This document shows, piece after piece, positions 2,267-46,090 of a stretch of DNA of 64,000 nt. The position numbers and the translations under genes are program-made. The stretch covers positions 3,319,001-3,383,000 of the forward strand of contig CP141149.1 of assembly GCA_035235625.1 (NCBI GenBank), read 5' to 3'. The notes beneath the pieces were generated by a model. It was not told the DNA's origin, ran no database searches, and saw only the letters and a list, made by a program, of their open reading frames with translations. The stretch comes from Saururus chinensis. Its lineage: Eukaryota > Streptophyta > Magnoliopsida > Piperales > Saururaceae. The number at the start of each line of letters is the position of its first letter. Position 1 is the stretch's first letter.

Positions 2267-3640
2267 TGAACCTTTATGGCATACAAATGTATAGCAAGTG
2301 AGTCCTAAGTGAGGTCAAAATATTTATGAAATCATATAAAAGCATGTATGGGTGATAAGCTTATGTTTCTTGTGTTCTATCATATTGATGGAAATTATTG
2401 AAAATAATAGTTGCTCACAATGAGATGATGTAATGCATGTTAGTACATGTGTGGCAATATGTATTGTATTGACTTATTTTGGTGAACAAAACAATGTCAA
2501 ATTGATGCACAATTTTAGCCATAGGATTGAATGCTTACTAATGAAGATCACTTGGTGAACATGAAGTAAATTGGAAGGCTCGGAAGTTTTTCACAAGTAA
2601 AAATACGCACACACATCACATTCATAGGCTTAGGATAAAGGGTTGATCATAGTAGAGTGTAAGAAAAAGAATAAGTGGAAAATGTGTAAAATATTACATA
2701 TGTAAAATTTTCATCTGAGATTAATCAAAATAAGAAAGGGATTAACTGGAAAGATTTTTGAATTTCGATATTGTAGCAACACAATAGCAAATTACTATAT
2801 CAGTACTATAGCAAGTTACTATTCATTGATCAACTAGTAACTATAGCAACTGATTGTTGGAGTGTGCAACTTCCCAAAATAGGCCATTTTGAGTTGATTT
2901 TGATTCCTATTCAAGGTTTAGAACCTAAAAGGGGCATTTTGAATAGGAGAATAGAAGAGGAAAACCATTGTGAGCATAGAGAGATTGATGAGTCTACTCT
3001 TTTGTGTTTTAAGAGTATAGAACTTAACCTTTGCTACATGCTTTGAATATCAATTCAATTAGCCAAAAGTAAAATAAAATTCACAACACAACACACAAAA
3101 GAGCTTGAGGAGTTGCAGCAAAGTTCTTCATCAGGGAGTGATTGAAGAAGGTCAAAGGAAGATCAACAATCAATTTAGGAGTCTTTGATTGCACCTCTAA
3201 AAAAAGACTAAGATGGAATAAGTAGAGGGAAAGTTTGAAGGGTTCATCAGAGGGAGAAACTTGAAGGAAAACAATAAAACGGATTGCACAAAGAAAAAGA
3301 GTTTTAATTTGTGTCAAGTTAAGAGGTTTGTTGGTGGTTCTCTAGTCTTATATGTTTTTGATTACTAGTACATTAATTTGGCTTTGTGTGGCTATCATGG
3401 TTTTTTTCCCTATTTGGGGTTTTCCACATTAAATCCTTGTGTGATCTTGCATACTTTAGATTTGGTTGCTAATAGATTAACCATGAATGACCCATAGTGA
3501 TTGTGTTTTTATTGTTTCCACTGCTGATTAAATTCATATGCATAGAAGCAAGAAGTCTTAATTCTTACTTGTTAATGTACTAGTTTTAAATCAATCTAGT
3601 AATTCACTAAGTTGATTAGATGGATATTAAACTCTAAAGT
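2267..3640 (+). repeat. Sirevirus-like copia LTR, left copy
   Basis: AT-rich non-coding stretch. Its last 300 bases match the end of the LTR at 23068-24608 (shared phrases: a TACTAGTTTTAA block, GTCGATTAGATG-like block, ATTAAACTCT end). The earlier part also has the TAGCAA/CTATAGCAA repeats common in Sirevirus LTRs but aligns poorly by eye to the right copy. The 5' limit is not resolved; the Reina-like LTR at 2266 abuts it. The two LTRs may belong to one old element or to two relatives. Confidence 0.5.
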
Positions 3641-4790
3641 GTTAGCTAAAGTTTTTGATTAAGTATTTATGAGCTTTCATTATATCTATCAAGTTTCCCA
3701 TGCATATCCGTGTTAGTGTTGACCAATTCCTCTTAGAGTTGCTCAATCTTATTAAAAGTGTTTTTGGTGATTTTGTGTGTTTGTTTAAACTTTTTTCTTT
3801 TGGCTTGATTTTGTAACCATGTCTAGTTCTTATTCTTTTATTGTTGATGAGGATTTTGATATTTAAAATCATTTTACACAAGTCACTGAAAGTAGTCAAA
3901 AATGTGAGATGTTAGAGAAGATTGTCAAATTAAATGAGTAGTTTAATTTTCACTCGAGAAAGAGGTAAAAACCTTGAGGAGTGAACTTGGGAAAGAGAGA
4001 AAGAAATCTAGATCTTTAGAAAATGAACTTAACTCTGCTAATGAGAAGTTTGATGCCTTCAAATCTGAGAAAAATAATCTTCCAGGTAAGATAAAATTCT
4101 TATAGAATGAGGTTCATGAGAAATTAGAGACAAATAAGTCATGTCTAAAAAAAGATTCAAGATCGTAATGATTTAAAGCTTCTCAAGAAAAATTAAAAAT
4201 CTTCACCTTAGGGCAAGAAAATTTGGATAATATGGTGATCATGGGAAAGGATTCTAGTGATAAAAGAGGACTTTGTTTAAATGAGACAAATTCCATAAAG
4301 TTTAAAGGTGTCATAAAGTTTTTCAAAGCTAAATAACCTATGCCCCCTAGGAAAAATGATGACAAGATAAACCAAAATAAATTCTTATGAATCAAAGTTC
4401 AAAATTTAAATATATGAAGATACATCACACAAGAGAAAATTATGAGTCTTCCTTAATTAGACAAATTGAAGCAATGAAATTCAACCTAAAATACCTTAGT
4501 AAACAAGCCATGAACAAAATCCAATGCTAAGAAAATTTGGTATCTTCTAACTTCAATATATTACCTAAGAAGTCAACAAGAACCCAAATGAATTCTCAAT
4601 ATAATGAACCAAGAAACAAGAAAATTTGGGTCAATAAACATTCTCCACAGATGAACACATCTAAGTAGAGTACTTAAGACAATGAAAAGAAAACCTTGAA
4701 AATTTTGAAGAGAAATGATGACTTAGAGAACCTTCTTTTCCAAATTGACAGTGTGTGCAAGTCCTCCTCAGGTTTCTAATACACTAAAAT
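3641..4790 (+). mobile_element. Sirevirus-like gag remnant
   Basis: Plus-strand sequence downstream of the LTR reads as a Lys/Glu/Leu-rich coiled-coil (SRSLENELNSANEKFDAFKS) followed by a GQENLDNM...RGLCLNETNS block. That is the usual wording of the C-terminal half of Sirevirus/copia gag before the zinc knuckle. The fossil is broken with many interruptions. No pol region follows before the next element. Confidence 0.55.
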
Positions 4791-5334
4791 AATGTTCAAT
4801 TAGATATTTTAAAATACTGAATTAAAATCCTATTTTGAATTAATTCACTGCTTATTTGGGCCATTTATATTTTGAATAGGTGAGTTGGACTCTGTTGTAT
4901 TTACATGTCCAAATGGGCTTCGATAGGATCCAAGTGGAAGAGGAAGTGAAACCTAACTACCTAAAATTATTCAATGGTAAAAAATGGGATCTTAATAGTC
5001 TAAGAATGCATTGAATGGTCAAACACAACCTTGTGGACCCATTGGATTTCAGATTTACATCAAGGGAACCAAATTTAGGAAGAAACTGAGTTAGACATAT
5101 TGACATAGACTGAGGATTTCGGTCATATCTTTCTATGTATAAATCAAATTGATATGATTTTGATGCAATTAGATAGAAGACTTTTGTGGCTACAATCACT
5201 ATTTCAAGAAAAAATGCACATTTCCAAAGATATATGGGTTAAATCTAACATGCAAATCAATAGCTAGTTAATTGGATTGAGGCCAATACATGGAGGATCG
5301 TTTTACTAGTTGTGATTGATATAAATAGGGAAAG
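4791..5334. other. unassigned AT-rich stretch
   Basis: No convincing reading frame, LTR end or repeat was recognised. It lies between a copia gag remnant and the left LTR of the chimeric gypsy element, so it is probably degraded copia interior or older repeat sequence. Confidence 0.4.
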
Positions 5335-41307: not shown

Positions 41308-41611
41308 AACCACATGCTATAGAAGCACCTTCACACAGTGCATGCAGCAAACCAACGTTATGGAAATGCTCTCACATAAGACAGAGATGAAAATCCAGAG
41401 AAGGATGATGTAAAAAACAATTTTCACTCATATAGGAAATCTTGTTGGAGATAATTCATCCCATTCAAATGGATGCGTCCATTTGTTAACAAACACATTT
41501 TGGTATAAAAAATTGGATAAATTTTGGGTTAAGAGAAAACAAAATGAATTTGTCCCAACCAATCCCGACTTGGCGAGCTACACGTGCGAACTGAACTAAG
41601 AGGTGGCGGCG
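41308..41611 (-). repeat. Copia LTR, left part, interrupted by insertion
   Basis: It continues across the insertion with 45725-46090: the two pieces meet at the CGGCG target duplication. In minus-strand sense the sequence matches the copia LTR on the plus strand starting near 54105 (GCCAAGTCGGGATTGGTTGGG-type block against GGCAAAATCGGGTTCAATCAA). Confidence 0.6.
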
Positions 41612-41953
41612 TGATGTGGACGGTTATCCACAAGCATGGAGTGGTGCAAGGAGACAAGGAAAGGGGAGAGGGGATGGCATGACCATCAGACAGAAAGGGG
41701 AGAAGCACAGAAGAAAGGGAAGAAGATCAGACAATTAATCATTCACTAATAAACTTTGGGCGTGGCCCTTACATTTAAATAGGCTAACTAATGGGCTCAC
41801 TAACAAGCACCTAGGGCCCATTAGCATAATTAACATAAATAACTAATTACCTAATTAACTAAATTACTTAAATACTCTTATTTTATAATACTAATTAAAG
41901 CACTAATTACCCTAGCATGTGGCTCTAGTGGCAGCCTTAGAACGTGCACAACA
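41612..41953 (-). repeat. 3' LTR of the gene-carrying element
   Basis: 342 bp. On the plus strand it starts TGATGTGGAC and ends GTGCACAACA, and it pairs with 45361-45702 at about 94 percent. Confidence 0.9.
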
Positions 41954-41969
41954 TTCCACCCCACTTCCG

Positions 41970-43110
41970 CATCACCTCATCCTCGAGGTGACCTTCAACT
42001 CGCACCCATGGGCCCACCACAGCTTCGCTTTGAGCAGCCAGTCCGAAACGGAGGGGAATGCAGTTCATGCTGCTGGAATCTGGAAATAGAGGATCTTCGT
42101 CTTTGAACGTCCACTCACATAACTTCGTCTGCACTTGTTCCAGCTGGAGCCGCATAATACTATTAATCTGCTCCCGGTTCAAAGGAAAAAATACAAGATA
42201 CTCGCTCCTGCTGTCCAGAAATTCATGACGGAAAAGTGCCCTAGCAGCTTCCATGACCCTCCCATCATCTAATATCCAAAGAGATACATTAAACACATCG
42301 GAGTGAGCTTGCACTATTTCATCAAGCAAGAATATCACTGCATATGGCCACTTTCGAATTGTTTCAATAAATTGTACACCATCTTCATAGCCCACATAGC
42401 CAGAAAGTGCCCTTATCAGTCCAGAAACATCATGCTCGGTATTGAACATGCGAGCAGCCAGAGCCGTCACGAGCTCGGTTTTCCCCACTCCAGTGGAACA
42501 CATGAACATAGGACTTGCACAAGGGCGATGTTGATCTGAAAGAATGGCCCTGGATTTCTGGATGGCCTCATCTACCACTCGCACAACAGGTCCGTGGCCC
42601 ACTACATGTTTATGGAGCTCATCGTCTAAAGGCAGTAGTTGTTCTCTCGTAGATTGTTGTAACTCAGAAACAGGAATGTCAGTCCACTTACTAACAATGT
42701 CAGCTATACCATCACCAATAACCTCTTCCCTCAGCATGGATTTGCCAGAACTCCTATATCCATCCAAGTCTGTTTCTGCAACTTCTAGCTGTCGCCAGTC
42801 AAGCTCTTCCTTTATGGATTGCATGCGGTACATCACTAATTGCTCATGCTCACATTGCTCAGTCAAGTGAGCTTGCCTAGCTTTTAAAAGAGAAAAATCC
42901 ACGTGTTGATGGTTCAACATATCCCTTGCAGCCGTATCTGTAGTATCTGTAAGAGAGAGGCACCCCATCTTCCACTTATTAATCTCAGGAAGAACAATTG
43001 GCACTGATTTCTCATCATCCCTGCCAATGTCTGGATCAATCTTCCCACCTCGAGCCAGTCCTGTCCGTTCTTGCCCATATTTCTTCTTGGATTTCAGCAC
43101 AACACAGTGA
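41970..43110 (-). pseudogene. Carried fragment of an organellar-type ClpB/HSP100 chaperone
   Basis: Minus-strand sequence inside the retroelement, in element sense. Recognisable ClpB blocks in order: the start of the first ATPase domain (GKIDPDIGRDDE), the coiled-coil middle domain (INKWKMGCLSLTDTTDTAAR, KARQAHLTEQCEHE), the linker GKSMLREEV...DIVSKWTDIPVSELQQS, then the second ATPase domain with TGVGKTEL, YVGYEDGVQFIE and AHSDVFNVSLWILDDGRV, and an EFLDSR...REQINSI block. The middle-domain wording (LSLT-DTD) is that of plant plastid or mitochondrial ClpB (ClpB3/ClpB4), not cytosolic HSP101. Most of the first ATPase domain and parts of the others are absent, and no intron is evident, as expected from a spliced RNA copy. 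Not expected to work as a chaperone. Confidence 0.85.
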
Positions 43111-43149
43111 AAATGGTAGCACTGATTTTCATTTTCAACAGTCAACACC

Positions 43150-43655
43150 GACCCACTAAGAACACTGGTGATGGTGTAATGGTCAGTGCAGATTTTGGCC
43201 CACAGGATAGTTTCAAAAGCAAAATGTTTATCAGGAATTCTCTCCCAATAGACTTCATTCTCACAGAGGTTTCGCCATTCCAGGAATCATTCTCTAATGA
43301 TGCTATCAAATTGGGACTGGATTGGTAGCTTGTCTCTGTTAGTCTAAAACCAGTCGGCTATAACAACAACAAGGGCTATGCATGCACTTTCACCTGCAGC
43401 CCGCTCACTCCTTTGATCAATGGAAGCAAAAATGATTTCAGTGGAGAGCTGCACGTGCCCATCTTGGCTACTGCCTTCTTTCTGCTCCCAATTTCCAATA
43501 GCAAAATTATCATTGACCAAATTCATATACTGATTACCTGGTGCTTCTTCATCAAACTTCTGCCGCCCTAAACCGAAATATTCCTCAGAGGAACTCAGCT
43601 CCCGACAATCAAAATTAATATCATTATAGGTGGTGGCTTGGAAACTCTGGAGCAA
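43150..43655 (-). pseudogene. Carried fragment resembling a plant NT-C2 (EEIG1/EHBP1-type) protein
   Basis: Minus-strand stretch upstream of the ClpB piece, same sense. The wording STEIIFASIDQRSERAAGES followed by CIALVVVIADWF and, further on, a Phe-Asp-Ser...Glu-Trp-Arg-Asn-Leu-Cys-Glu-Asn block matches from memory a conserved C-terminal region of plant proteins with an N-terminal C2 domain of the EEIG1/EHBP1 type. The family assignment is from recall and needs a search. That it is host coding sequence and not retroelement is fairly clear from its composition and from the lack of gag or pol likeness. Confidence 0.55.
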
Positions 43656-43659
43656 TTCG

Positions 43660-44570
43660 TTGAACAGTTGGTGGCGTAGAGAACGCCCCCCATGGTCGAC
43701 GTCGAATTGACCCAGACAGAATTCCTGGCAAAGTTGAGCAACATGTGGCTTGTCCCGTAGGCATGAGGGAAGGATTTGTTGCGGAACAATGGATGATCAT
43801 TGGGTGGCTGGCAGGCTTCCATTTCCATCAGACATAGTTTGCTAAAGACAACCCAGTAGCATGCGATGCAGGAGCAGAGGACTTTGGCTGGGAGTGCATT
43901 GAAATCTTCGACAAAATGTGGGGATAGAAGTCCAGCCCAGATGACTGAAGCCTGGGCCAGTGGCAGCAGACGGTGCTGGGTGGTGGCCATCAGCTGTCCC
44001 ATGGCGAAAGTCACAGCGACCTGGAGTGGGGAAAGGCCACCTCCCCTGCTCGGACCAGAGTAGCGAATCCCCCGTACATTCTGCTGGGAATAGAAATCCT
44101 TCCACACTAACCAAAATTGACTGAGATTATCCCTTACAAAAATCCAAGGATGCAGAGCAATACCGATGGAAAGGAGCACAACGTCTTGTAGCAGAAGCCT
44201 GGTGCAAACAGAGATACTGGCCATGATTTTCGCCAGGGGAGAAGGGAAGGTGGGTCGCAATATGGGTATTACTGGATCAGAATTGAGGAATCTGGGGCAC
44301 GCACCAGAATTCCAGCAATCCCGGAATCCCCTACGCTGGTGAATCGCCAGAGATCTCCTGGAAGAAAATCCCGCATCATCAGGGCTATCTCCGGGAAGCA
44401 AATCCCAATTCGCAGCTTGCGACGCTCCTCTGTTCTCTGTCCATGGCGTCCACCGGAGACACCCAGGCAGCAGACAGGTTCTCCAGAAAGCAGGAAAATT
44501 CCAGCAGACTTAGCTTGAAACGACGACAGTGGCTAGATGGTGGTGCCAGTTAATCAGGGGGTGAATTCTG
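43660..44570 (-). pseudogene. Carried sequence of unknown origin
   Basis: It contains a long open stretch on the minus strand (43595-44401) that matches no family I can name: neither gag nor pol, and not obviously ClpB or NT-C2. It could be a further carried host exon, an untranslated leader of a carried gene, or non-coding filler with a chance frame. Confidence 0.4.
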
Positions 44571-44890
44571 GCTAGGAGTGGGTGGAGCCCAACCGGCGCC
44601 TGGGCCAGTGGCGTGGCGGAAGGCGAGAGAGATGACGGGTGGAGGAGAAGAAGGCGGCCAGGGTTCTGGCGGATGGCGGAGCACTGAAGGAGGTGGGAGG
44701 CGATGAGGTCAGAGGTGAAGTCCGGAAGGCGGGTGCCGTGAGGGGGCTGGGACGGCGGCGTGGCGTTGGGGTCGCCACCATGGGGAAACTAGAATGGGGG
44801 CTCGATGCGGAGCTGGCGCTTGCGTCAGCGGCGTTCGGCGGTGGCCTCTTTGGCGGAGGAGAAGGCAAGGGAACGCAAGCTGGCCAGGAT
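44570..44890 (-). pseudogene. Carried fragment resembling the N-terminus of a GRP23-like PPR protein
   Basis: Minus-strand sequence with an AFSSAKEATAERR block followed by RKRQLRIEPP and, a little later, a Pro-rich stretch with RLPDFTSDLI. From recall this is the order found at the N-terminus of plant GRP23-type pentatricopeptide proteins (Ser-rich leader, Arg-rich helix, then the RLPDSTS-type block). The fragment stops before any PPR repeat. The strand opposite also has open frames here, which I read as shadows of GC-rich coding sequence. Confidence 0.45.
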
Positions 44891-45119
44891 GGGGATCTGC
44901 AAGGCTGGAACATCACGAAGGTTGTATCCACCTTGTCCTGTTCCTCATGGCTGGGTGCGATGTCTTCCCATGTGAACACAGCAGCCTTAAGCTCCTTTCT
45001 GCTGATTGCTCCTGCACTCCTCCCGTCTGGTGAGTGAGCAGTTGGGCTGGGCAGAACCGGCAAGAGTGGTGGTGGGTGGGGCAGCTCCTTCGCTGGCTGA
45101 ACATTGGGCAACCATGGTG

Positions 45120-45340
45120 GTAGAATAGGAGTGATGCGCGCTTTCAGGGCAGCCTGCTGTACCTTCATGCTAGCGAAGTCTGCAGTAAGGGTTTGCACCG
45201 CCAAGAGGATCTTTGACAGCTTAGTGTCGCTGACCACGAAATTGGCCTTCGGGCTGTCCGCTGATGATGGCGCTGGTGCCTCCTTCTCTAAAGGTGCCTC
45301 TTGCACAACAACCTGTTTGCCATGAGCCATGGCCGGGGAT
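45120..45340 (-). mobile_element. Reina-like gag N-terminal piece of the gene-carrying element
   Basis: It reads AMAHGKQVVVQEAPLEKEAPA and LSKILLAVQTLTADFASMKVQ in element sense, aligning with the gag start of the chimeric element (AIAQGKQPTVAPEVQPEKE, about 14640-14560). This ties the gene-carrying element to the Reina-like family. The piece ends where the host-like sequence begins. Confidence 0.75.
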
Positions 45341-45347
45341 CGCAAAA

Positions 45348-45360
45348 GCTCCAATACCAA
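45348..45360 (-). other. Primer binding site of the gene-carrying element
   Basis: GCTCCAATACCAA on the plus strand, TTGGTATTGGAGC in element sense, directly beside the 5' LTR. It is complementary to initiator Met-tRNA with small differences from TGGTATCAGAGC. Confidence 0.8.
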
Positions 45361-45724
45361 TGATGTGGATAGTTGTCCACAAGCATGGAGCGGTGCAGGG
45401 AGACAGGGAAAGGGGAGAGGGGATGGCATAGCCATCAGACAGAAAGGGGAGAAGCACAAAAAAAAGGGAAGAAGATCAGATAATTAATCATTCACTAATC
45501 AACTTAAGGCGTAGCCCTTACATTTAAATAGGCTAACTAATGGGCCCACTAACAAGCACCTAAGGCCCATTGGCATAATTAACATAAATAACTAATTACC
45601 TAATTAACCAAATTACTTAAATACCCTTATTTTACAATACTAATTAAAGCACTAATTACCCTAGCATGTGGCTCTAGTGGCAGCCTTAGAACGTGCACAA
45701 CAGAGCCCTAGAATGTGCACAACA
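45361..45724 (-). repeat. 5' LTR of the gene-carrying element with extra 22 bp tip
   Basis: Positions 45361-45702 pair with 41612-41953. The outer 22 bp (45703-45724) repeat the LTR tip once more with about three differences, so this LTR starts (minus strand) with two successive TGTTGTGCAC tips. The target duplication lies outside the second tip. Confidence 0.85.
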
Positions 45725-46090
45725 CGGCGGTGGCACGTGCATATGGGTTAGCCCACCTAGGTGCATGGTTCCAATATGTATCTCCCCCACAAAAGAGGGG
45801 TGGCCCAAGGACCTACCTTGAAATACCCAACTTATGCCTTATATACCAACATCATCACCTTTTTGTAGGCGATGTGAGACTATTCACTCTTTCAACCAAT
45901 TCACATGTGTAATTCTCATTCACTTTAAAGTGGGCTTGGGCTCTCAATACCCATATGGGGGCTTAACCAATATAAACCCACTTCTAGCAATCCCACATAT
46001 GAATGAGAATATACTGGATAACTACCCAAAATAATGCAGATAAAATGTGAGAGCAATCATTAAAAATTTCATGCATGGGGGAAGGTAGCT
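45725..46090 (-). repeat. Copia LTR, right part
   Basis: In minus-strand sense it starts CTTCCCCCATGCATG and matches the plus-strand copia LTR at 54105-54450 block by block (GAGAGCCCAAGCCC, ATTACACATGTGAATT, ATAGT.TCACATC). The remainder lies left of the insertion at 41308-41611. Confidence 0.7.

Follow-up and report, generated by a model that had tools for sequence, protein, structure and literature searches.

An element with long terminal repeats (LTRs) and complete ends lies at 41607-45729 of the window, the 64,000-nt stretch of the Saururus chinensis genome analysed here (C10:3319001-3383000; the genome spans 516 Mb over 11 contigs). Its sense is that of the minus strand. Between the LTRs we find pieces of four host genes, all in the element's sense: an organellar ClpB gene, an NT-C2 gene, and two PPR genes, one of them GRP23-like. 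A first-pass annotation had proposed a complete-ended retroelement here, with matching LTRs, a primer binding site, a CGGCG target-site duplication, and two or perhaps three of these gene pieces. All of this is confirmed, and the second PPR gene (43079-43197) is added to it. The features are as follows.

41607-41611: target-site duplication CGGCG, left copy
41612-41953, minus strand: 3' LTR, 342 bp, TG...CA
41954-41970, minus strand: polypurine tract (PPT) with adjoining bases, beside the 3' LTR
42110-43084, minus strand: organellar ClpB piece, with the start of NBD1 followed by middle and D2 regions; it is spliced and has an internal deletion, and its outer bound is approximate
43079-43197, minus strand: PPR-gene piece, likely source C2:2336521-2336814; joined to ClpB at a common AGAAAT
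43191-43624, minus strand: NT-C2 piece, from the C-terminal portion of a gene whose likely source is L035; an intron is precisely absent near 43565
43625-44580, minus strand: sequence without an assigned source gene, parts of it common to other family members
44690-44875, minus strand: GRP23-like PPR-gene piece, likely source C6:27631761-27632114; 85.5% identity over 186 bp
45119-45330, minus strand: gag start, with its ATG at 45330; common to the gag-pol elements L029 and L030
45348-45360, minus strand: primer binding site (PBS) TTGGTATTGGAGC
45361-45724, minus strand: 5' LTR, 364 bp; the outer end carries 22 bp that nearly repeat the start of this LTR
45725-45729: target-site duplication CGGCG, right copy

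Element structure and age

The element has the structure of an LTR retrotransposon. Its paired LTRs have TG...CA ends, a perfect 5-bp target-site duplication (TSD) stands on both flanks, and the PBS and PPT adjoin the LTRs on the minus strand. The PBS resembles the end of initiator tRNA-Met. The LTRs differ in length by 22 additional bases at the outer end of the 5' LTR. These bases (45703-45724) are a near-repeat of the first bases of the 5' LTR and are absent from the 3' LTR; a similar 22-bp near-repeat at the LTR start is also seen in several other copies, in one or both LTRs. The two LTRs show 21 differences over 342 aligned sites (19 transitions and 2 transversions), a Kimura two-parameter divergence of 0.065. 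At the rate of 1.3e-8 that appears in an excerpt of PMC5664825, this corresponds to an insertion about 2.5 million years ago.

Host gene pieces and their likely sources

The captured pieces have likely sources that are dispersed in the same genome. In place of BLASTX, we used Pfam, PDB, and searches of the species' own genome; the DNA searches scored the best candidates (40 of 790, 40 of 1258, and 40 of 649), so that counts are lower bounds. A search for parent genes and sister copies, as the first-pass annotation had advised, located four likely parents, two of them with introns, and a sister family. The ClpB piece has ClpB as its best PDB match (E 9e-53), and AAA_2 in this piece is the one family above its curated cut-off in a Pfam scan of six interior open reading frames (ORFs). 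Its likely source, found by DNA search, is an intron-bearing host gene at C7:39.2 Mb (L031). The NT-C2 piece is the C-terminal part of a gene whose likely source lies at C7:30.54 Mb (L035), with an NT-C2 match (E 2.7e-5) just short of the cut-off. The PPR piece at 43079-43197 shows 89.9% identity to its likely source, a PPR gene with a 695-residue open frame at C2:2.336 Mb, and the GC-rich gene at C6:27.63 Mb that resembles the GRP23-like piece has a 602-residue open frame with PPR matches. The name GRP23 is that of the first-pass annotation; Pfam backs PPR only. Within this module no PPR match was found by Pfam in sisters L041 and L040, while host gene L043 has one. The four likely sources thus lie on C2, C6, and two distant sites of C7, which speaks against read-through of neighbouring genes.

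A genome search with 44130-44580, part of the sequence without an assigned source, gave 46 matches in scattered partial blocks (best 40 of 72 candidates scored). Many such partial relatives of this module exist, several of which are split at about the midpoint.

Spliced joins and microhomology

All three exon joins examined against intron-bearing likely sources are precisely spliced, with GT-AG introns, in two genes. At the NT-C2 join, the source reads TTTAGGG/GTATGT...TTTGCAG/TGGCAG and the element TTTAGGG/CGGCAG. At the first ClpB join, the source reads AAGGAAGAG/GTAATA...GTGCAG/ATTGAC and the element AAGGAAGAG/CTTGAC, followed by a coding deletion. At the second, the source reads GGCTACAG/GTATGC...TTTGGCAG/CTGGAAC and the element GGCTCCAG/CTGGAAC. 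Such intron loss relative to the source gene is the mark of LTR-captured retrogenes, and it bears out the earlier proposal that the absence of introns fits capture from spliced RNA. The outcome named in advance as refuting that proposal, retained introns or modules reaching past the LTRs, was not seen: the three joins lack introns, and the modules lie between the LTRs in 17 copies with paired LTRs. In sisters L013 and L015, the ClpB source blocks 2514-2680, 3408-3460, 4209-4446, and 4590-4857 are likewise brought close together, as judged from match coordinates rather than base by base.

The junctions between pieces carry short matches. The NT-C2/PPR join falls on a common CAAAATC and the PPR/ClpB join on a common AGAAAT. 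Within ClpB, 135 bases are deleted at the 9-nt repeat GGAGGGTAA. Microhomology of 6-9 nt thus accompanies both of these gene-gene joins and the deletion. Short matches of this kind are what template switching would be expected to use. The 135-base gap relative to the ClpB source (L031 6041-6176) was also considered as an intron and rejected, the DNA being that of a coding deletion at GGAGGGTAA.

A family of copies with varying contents

The element belongs to a family. Among the 77 interior matches listed elsewhere in the genome, the 20 best all carry this LTR (20/20). The PPT and LTR start motif occurs at 545 places genome-wide (at most 2 mismatches; control 0), which may describe a wider clade that includes related autonomous elements. 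We found LTR pairs in 17 copies: the window copy, 14 of the 20 interior-match loci (including L010), and 2 of 4 loci taken by the PPT-LTR motif. No LTR pair was found within the stretch examined at L011, L014, L016, L018, L019, or L022. An exact 5-bp TSD borders nine of the 17 paired copies, and its sequence differs in every case. It is absent from L010, L012, L013, L023, L025, L026, L037, and L039, of which L026 is incompletely bounded and the stretches of L037 and L039 stop at the LTR.

In 13 of the 17 paired copies we recognise two or more host genes, and the combinations differ. This proportion is no family rate, since 15 of the 17 comprise the window copy and loci picked up by their likeness to it. 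These 13 are the window copy (four genes), L009, L010, L012, L013, L015, L021, L023, L024, L025, L026, L027, and L039. L017, L020, and L028 carry one host gene each, L020 together with a module without an assigned source, and none was recognised in L037. Contents of L021, L023-L025, and others were assigned by local tblastn match to host pieces. Across the family there are about a dozen kinds of host-gene piece; sources were located for four genes and splicing was tested in two. Besides AAA_2 and PPR, Pfam recognised the following families in the copies.

L015: Epimerase, E 7e-5
L012: NAD_binding_2, E 2.7e-8
L039: 14-3-3, E 2.5e-56; Cupin_1, E 3.3e-5
L026: importin beta repeats, E 2e-24
L027: F-box and LRR; TIP49, E 4e-16
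L034: PK, E 2e-40; one LTR only in the stretch examined

A PK piece sits between the LTR pair in L021. The four PPT-motif loci were drawn from the 30 exact matches among the 545: L039 holds several host genes, nothing was recognised in L037 and L038, and L036 holds what we read as an integrase fragment.

Several copies show further features. In L039 (316-1374, minus strand), 14-3-3, cupin, and weak NAD-binding matches fall in a single 353-codon frame. In L021 (4597-5298, in the LTR's sense), an antisense ClpB piece lies beside the 5' LTR; after it come pyruvate kinase and NAD-binding pieces in sense orientation. Beside the element in L012 (7356-8759, in the LTR's sense), two more direct repeats of 333 bp form a second pair; they are 94% alike and lie about 1.1 kb from each other. 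Long AT-rich repeated blocks, possibly satellite, flank the element in L010 (1-717 and 8133-9798, turned). L036 (419-949) has antisense pol-like frames beside the same-LTR copy with the integrase fragment; these are perhaps a neighbouring element in the opposite direction.

Probable module exchange among copies

The nearest relative, among the loci compared, varies along the window copy.

Gag start: L029/L030 (88-94%); copies L010/L011 only 73-74%
45129-44630: L026 (89-95%)
44529-44230: L024/L034/L023
44129-43930: L011/L027/L012
Most of 43929-42530: L009/L012/L010
42229-42030: L028/L017/L009/L019

We find that the joins themselves recur. The PPR/ClpB join is present at 15 places with at most 2 mismatches and at one more with 3 (control 0). 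The NT-C2/PPR pattern is present at 8 places with at most 2 mismatches and at 3 more with 3, one of which is the PPR source gene (control 0); some of these places may be PPR pieces without NT-C2. The order NT-C2/PPR/ClpB is common to the window copy and L009, while L013 and L015 have PPR/ClpB without NT-C2, and L012 has NT-C2 without ClpB, beside another gene piece. The first-pass annotation had taken this combination of genes to be undescribed. The copy is one member of a family that holds the same modules in other combinations.

Lineage of the element

The gag start relates the element to autonomous elements of the same genome. Over about 249 bp (45119-45367), it is 92.8% identical to L029 and 92.0% to L030, both of which carry gag-pol ORFs; L029 also has a chromodomain match (E 8.5e-4) weaker than the Pfam curated cut-off. 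This relatedness would place the gag start in the Ty3 Reina-like chromovirus lineage, in agreement with its first description as Reina-like. The name Reina, taken over from the first-pass annotation, is provisional, the copy having no reverse transcriptase to place in a phylogeny of that enzyme. To our knowledge, the multi-gene maize element Bs1, considered below, is not of this lineage. The element shares its gag start and PBS with the Reina-type chromovirus elements L029 and L030 but differs from them in two respects: their LTRs are largely dissimilar, with short matches only (in L029), and the element has no detected pol. As the first-pass annotation had stated, neither reverse transcriptase nor integrase is seen, with no Pfam match to either in the six interior ORFs that the scan covered. 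Against Rfam, the whole window gave no match at gathering scores.

Coding status of the captured frames

A 449-codon frame (43286-41940) spans the end of the NT-C2 piece, the PPR piece, and ClpB, all in their parental frames. The GRP23-like piece is in a different frame. Between copies, the ratio of nonsynonymous to synonymous substitution (dN/dS) is 0.87 for ClpB (13 copies, 78 pairs) and 0.61 for NT-C2 (7 copies, 21 pairs), with stop codons omitted from the counts; 14 ClpB copies were entered, of which L021 gave 0 codons. Against the sources, dN/dS is 0.43-0.80 for ClpB and 0.32-0.60 for NT-C2. Judged by these sequences, the captured frames do not clearly appear to be a maintained gene. Synonymous divergence (dS) between the ClpB copies and their source is 0.18-0.30. 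This exceeds the LTR divergence of the window copy, and the ClpB capture is therefore likely to predate the insertion of this copy.

Origin of the mosaic

We consider it very probable that the element is a Reina-like LTR retrotransposon of the non-autonomous kind and that its interior is a patchwork of host cDNA, captured serially and then reassorted within the family. Spliced host mRNAs would have been packaged together with element RNA in virus-like particles supplied in trans by autonomous relatives. Reverse transcriptase would then have switched templates at short microhomologies, adding host pieces one after another. The chimeric RNAs would have been copied and inserted like those of ordinary family members, and jumps between co-packaged family RNAs may have reassorted the modules into the present copy. 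Several points weigh against this account. The case is built on genome copies. The assessment of microhomology covers three joins only (NT-C2/PPR, PPR/ClpB, and the ClpB deletion). The ClpB exon A/B join keeps only about 6 bases of exon B before a further coding deletion. No source gene was found for 43625-44580 (about 0.95 kb), and the search with its part 44130-44580 did not settle one. Finally, ClpB and 3' LTR trees of 13 copies broadly agree, by inspection rather than by formal test (L021, with ClpB on the other strand, was excluded, and L022, for which no downstream LTR was found, was represented by its 5' LTR). Reassortment is thus not visible at that boundary, and the signs of exchange lie chiefly in the 5' half.

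Other origins fit these data less well. A duplicated genomic segment that simply lies between LTRs, or uptake of the pieces as DNA, is hardly credible here: although Pack-type DNA elements and Helitrons do collect gene fragments, as described in parts of PMC13317346, the three spliced exon joins, the likely sources on three chromosomes, and the sister copies with their own LTR pairs, 9 of 17 with an exact TSD of their own, all argue against it. Alternatively, the chimera could have been built elsewhere, perhaps when a fused transcript was retroposed in the manner of long interspersed nuclear elements, and the element would then have captured it once as a ready-made retrogene. The order that the window copy shares with L009 and the PPR/ClpB join at 15-16 places would suit one fusion that was then amplified; judging by module content, we nevertheless hold this to be quite improbable, given that L013 and L015 lack NT-C2 and L012 lacks ClpB, as stepwise capture within the family would produce.

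It is also quite unlikely that the chimeric ORF is a new host or element gene under selection, similar to Bs1. The frame that remains open across three pieces and the NT-C2 ratio of 0.61 point in that direction. The ClpB ratio of 0.87 points away from it, as do stops in 11 of 13 ClpB copies and 6 of 7 NT-C2 copies; the window copy has none in ClpB but two in NT-C2, and its out-of-frame GRP23-like piece has two more.

Comparison with known elements

LTR elements are well known to take up single genes (parts of PMC3726574, PMC2774510, and PMC5664825). In a maize survey, as far as the excerpted text of PMC2774510 goes, 0 of 425 LTR elements carrying gene fragments contained two or more standard nuclear genes, which fits the first-pass remark that multi-gene capture is uncommon. 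Two or three genes within single LTR elements are mentioned for pepper in a portion of PMC5664825, and Bs1, with pieces of three genes, is the known exception in an extract of PMC13317346. Bs1 resembles the present element as an LTR element whose three host-gene pieces form a hybrid ORF (same extract). It differs in being low-copy (PMC2774510, in part), whereas here there are many copies with the same LTR and about a dozen kinds of host piece in varying combinations, four of them in the window copy.

The LTR-captured genes of maize, rice, sorghum, and pepper likewise lie inside LTR elements, with introns lost in pepper, but module exchange among copies is not mentioned in the sections available of these surveys (PMC2774510, PMC3726574, PMC5664825). 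Mosaic new copies are known from Onsen of Arabidopsis, where recombination within the family is ascribed to two RNAs that are packaged together and reverse-transcribed (PMC5668417, in part). Onsen swaps element sequence, whereas here captured host modules would be exchanged too, judging from static genome copies only. Among open-licence PMC texts, a search of titles found none on a Reina-like family whose host modules are shared and recombined.

On balance, we lean towards a broader view in which one Reina-like LTR lineage may have acted as a long-running gene shuffler, taking up spliced RNAs of about a dozen host genes serially and exchanging modules through co-packaged RNAs, with new multi-gene chimeras still arising. 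Exon shuffling by retrotransposons has usually been argued from single cases such as Bs1. In a family where the same modules stand in varying combinations and the likely sources are extant, the order of capture, the joins, and the frequency of module movement become readable. The assembly of chimeric genes thereby becomes a directly testable question.

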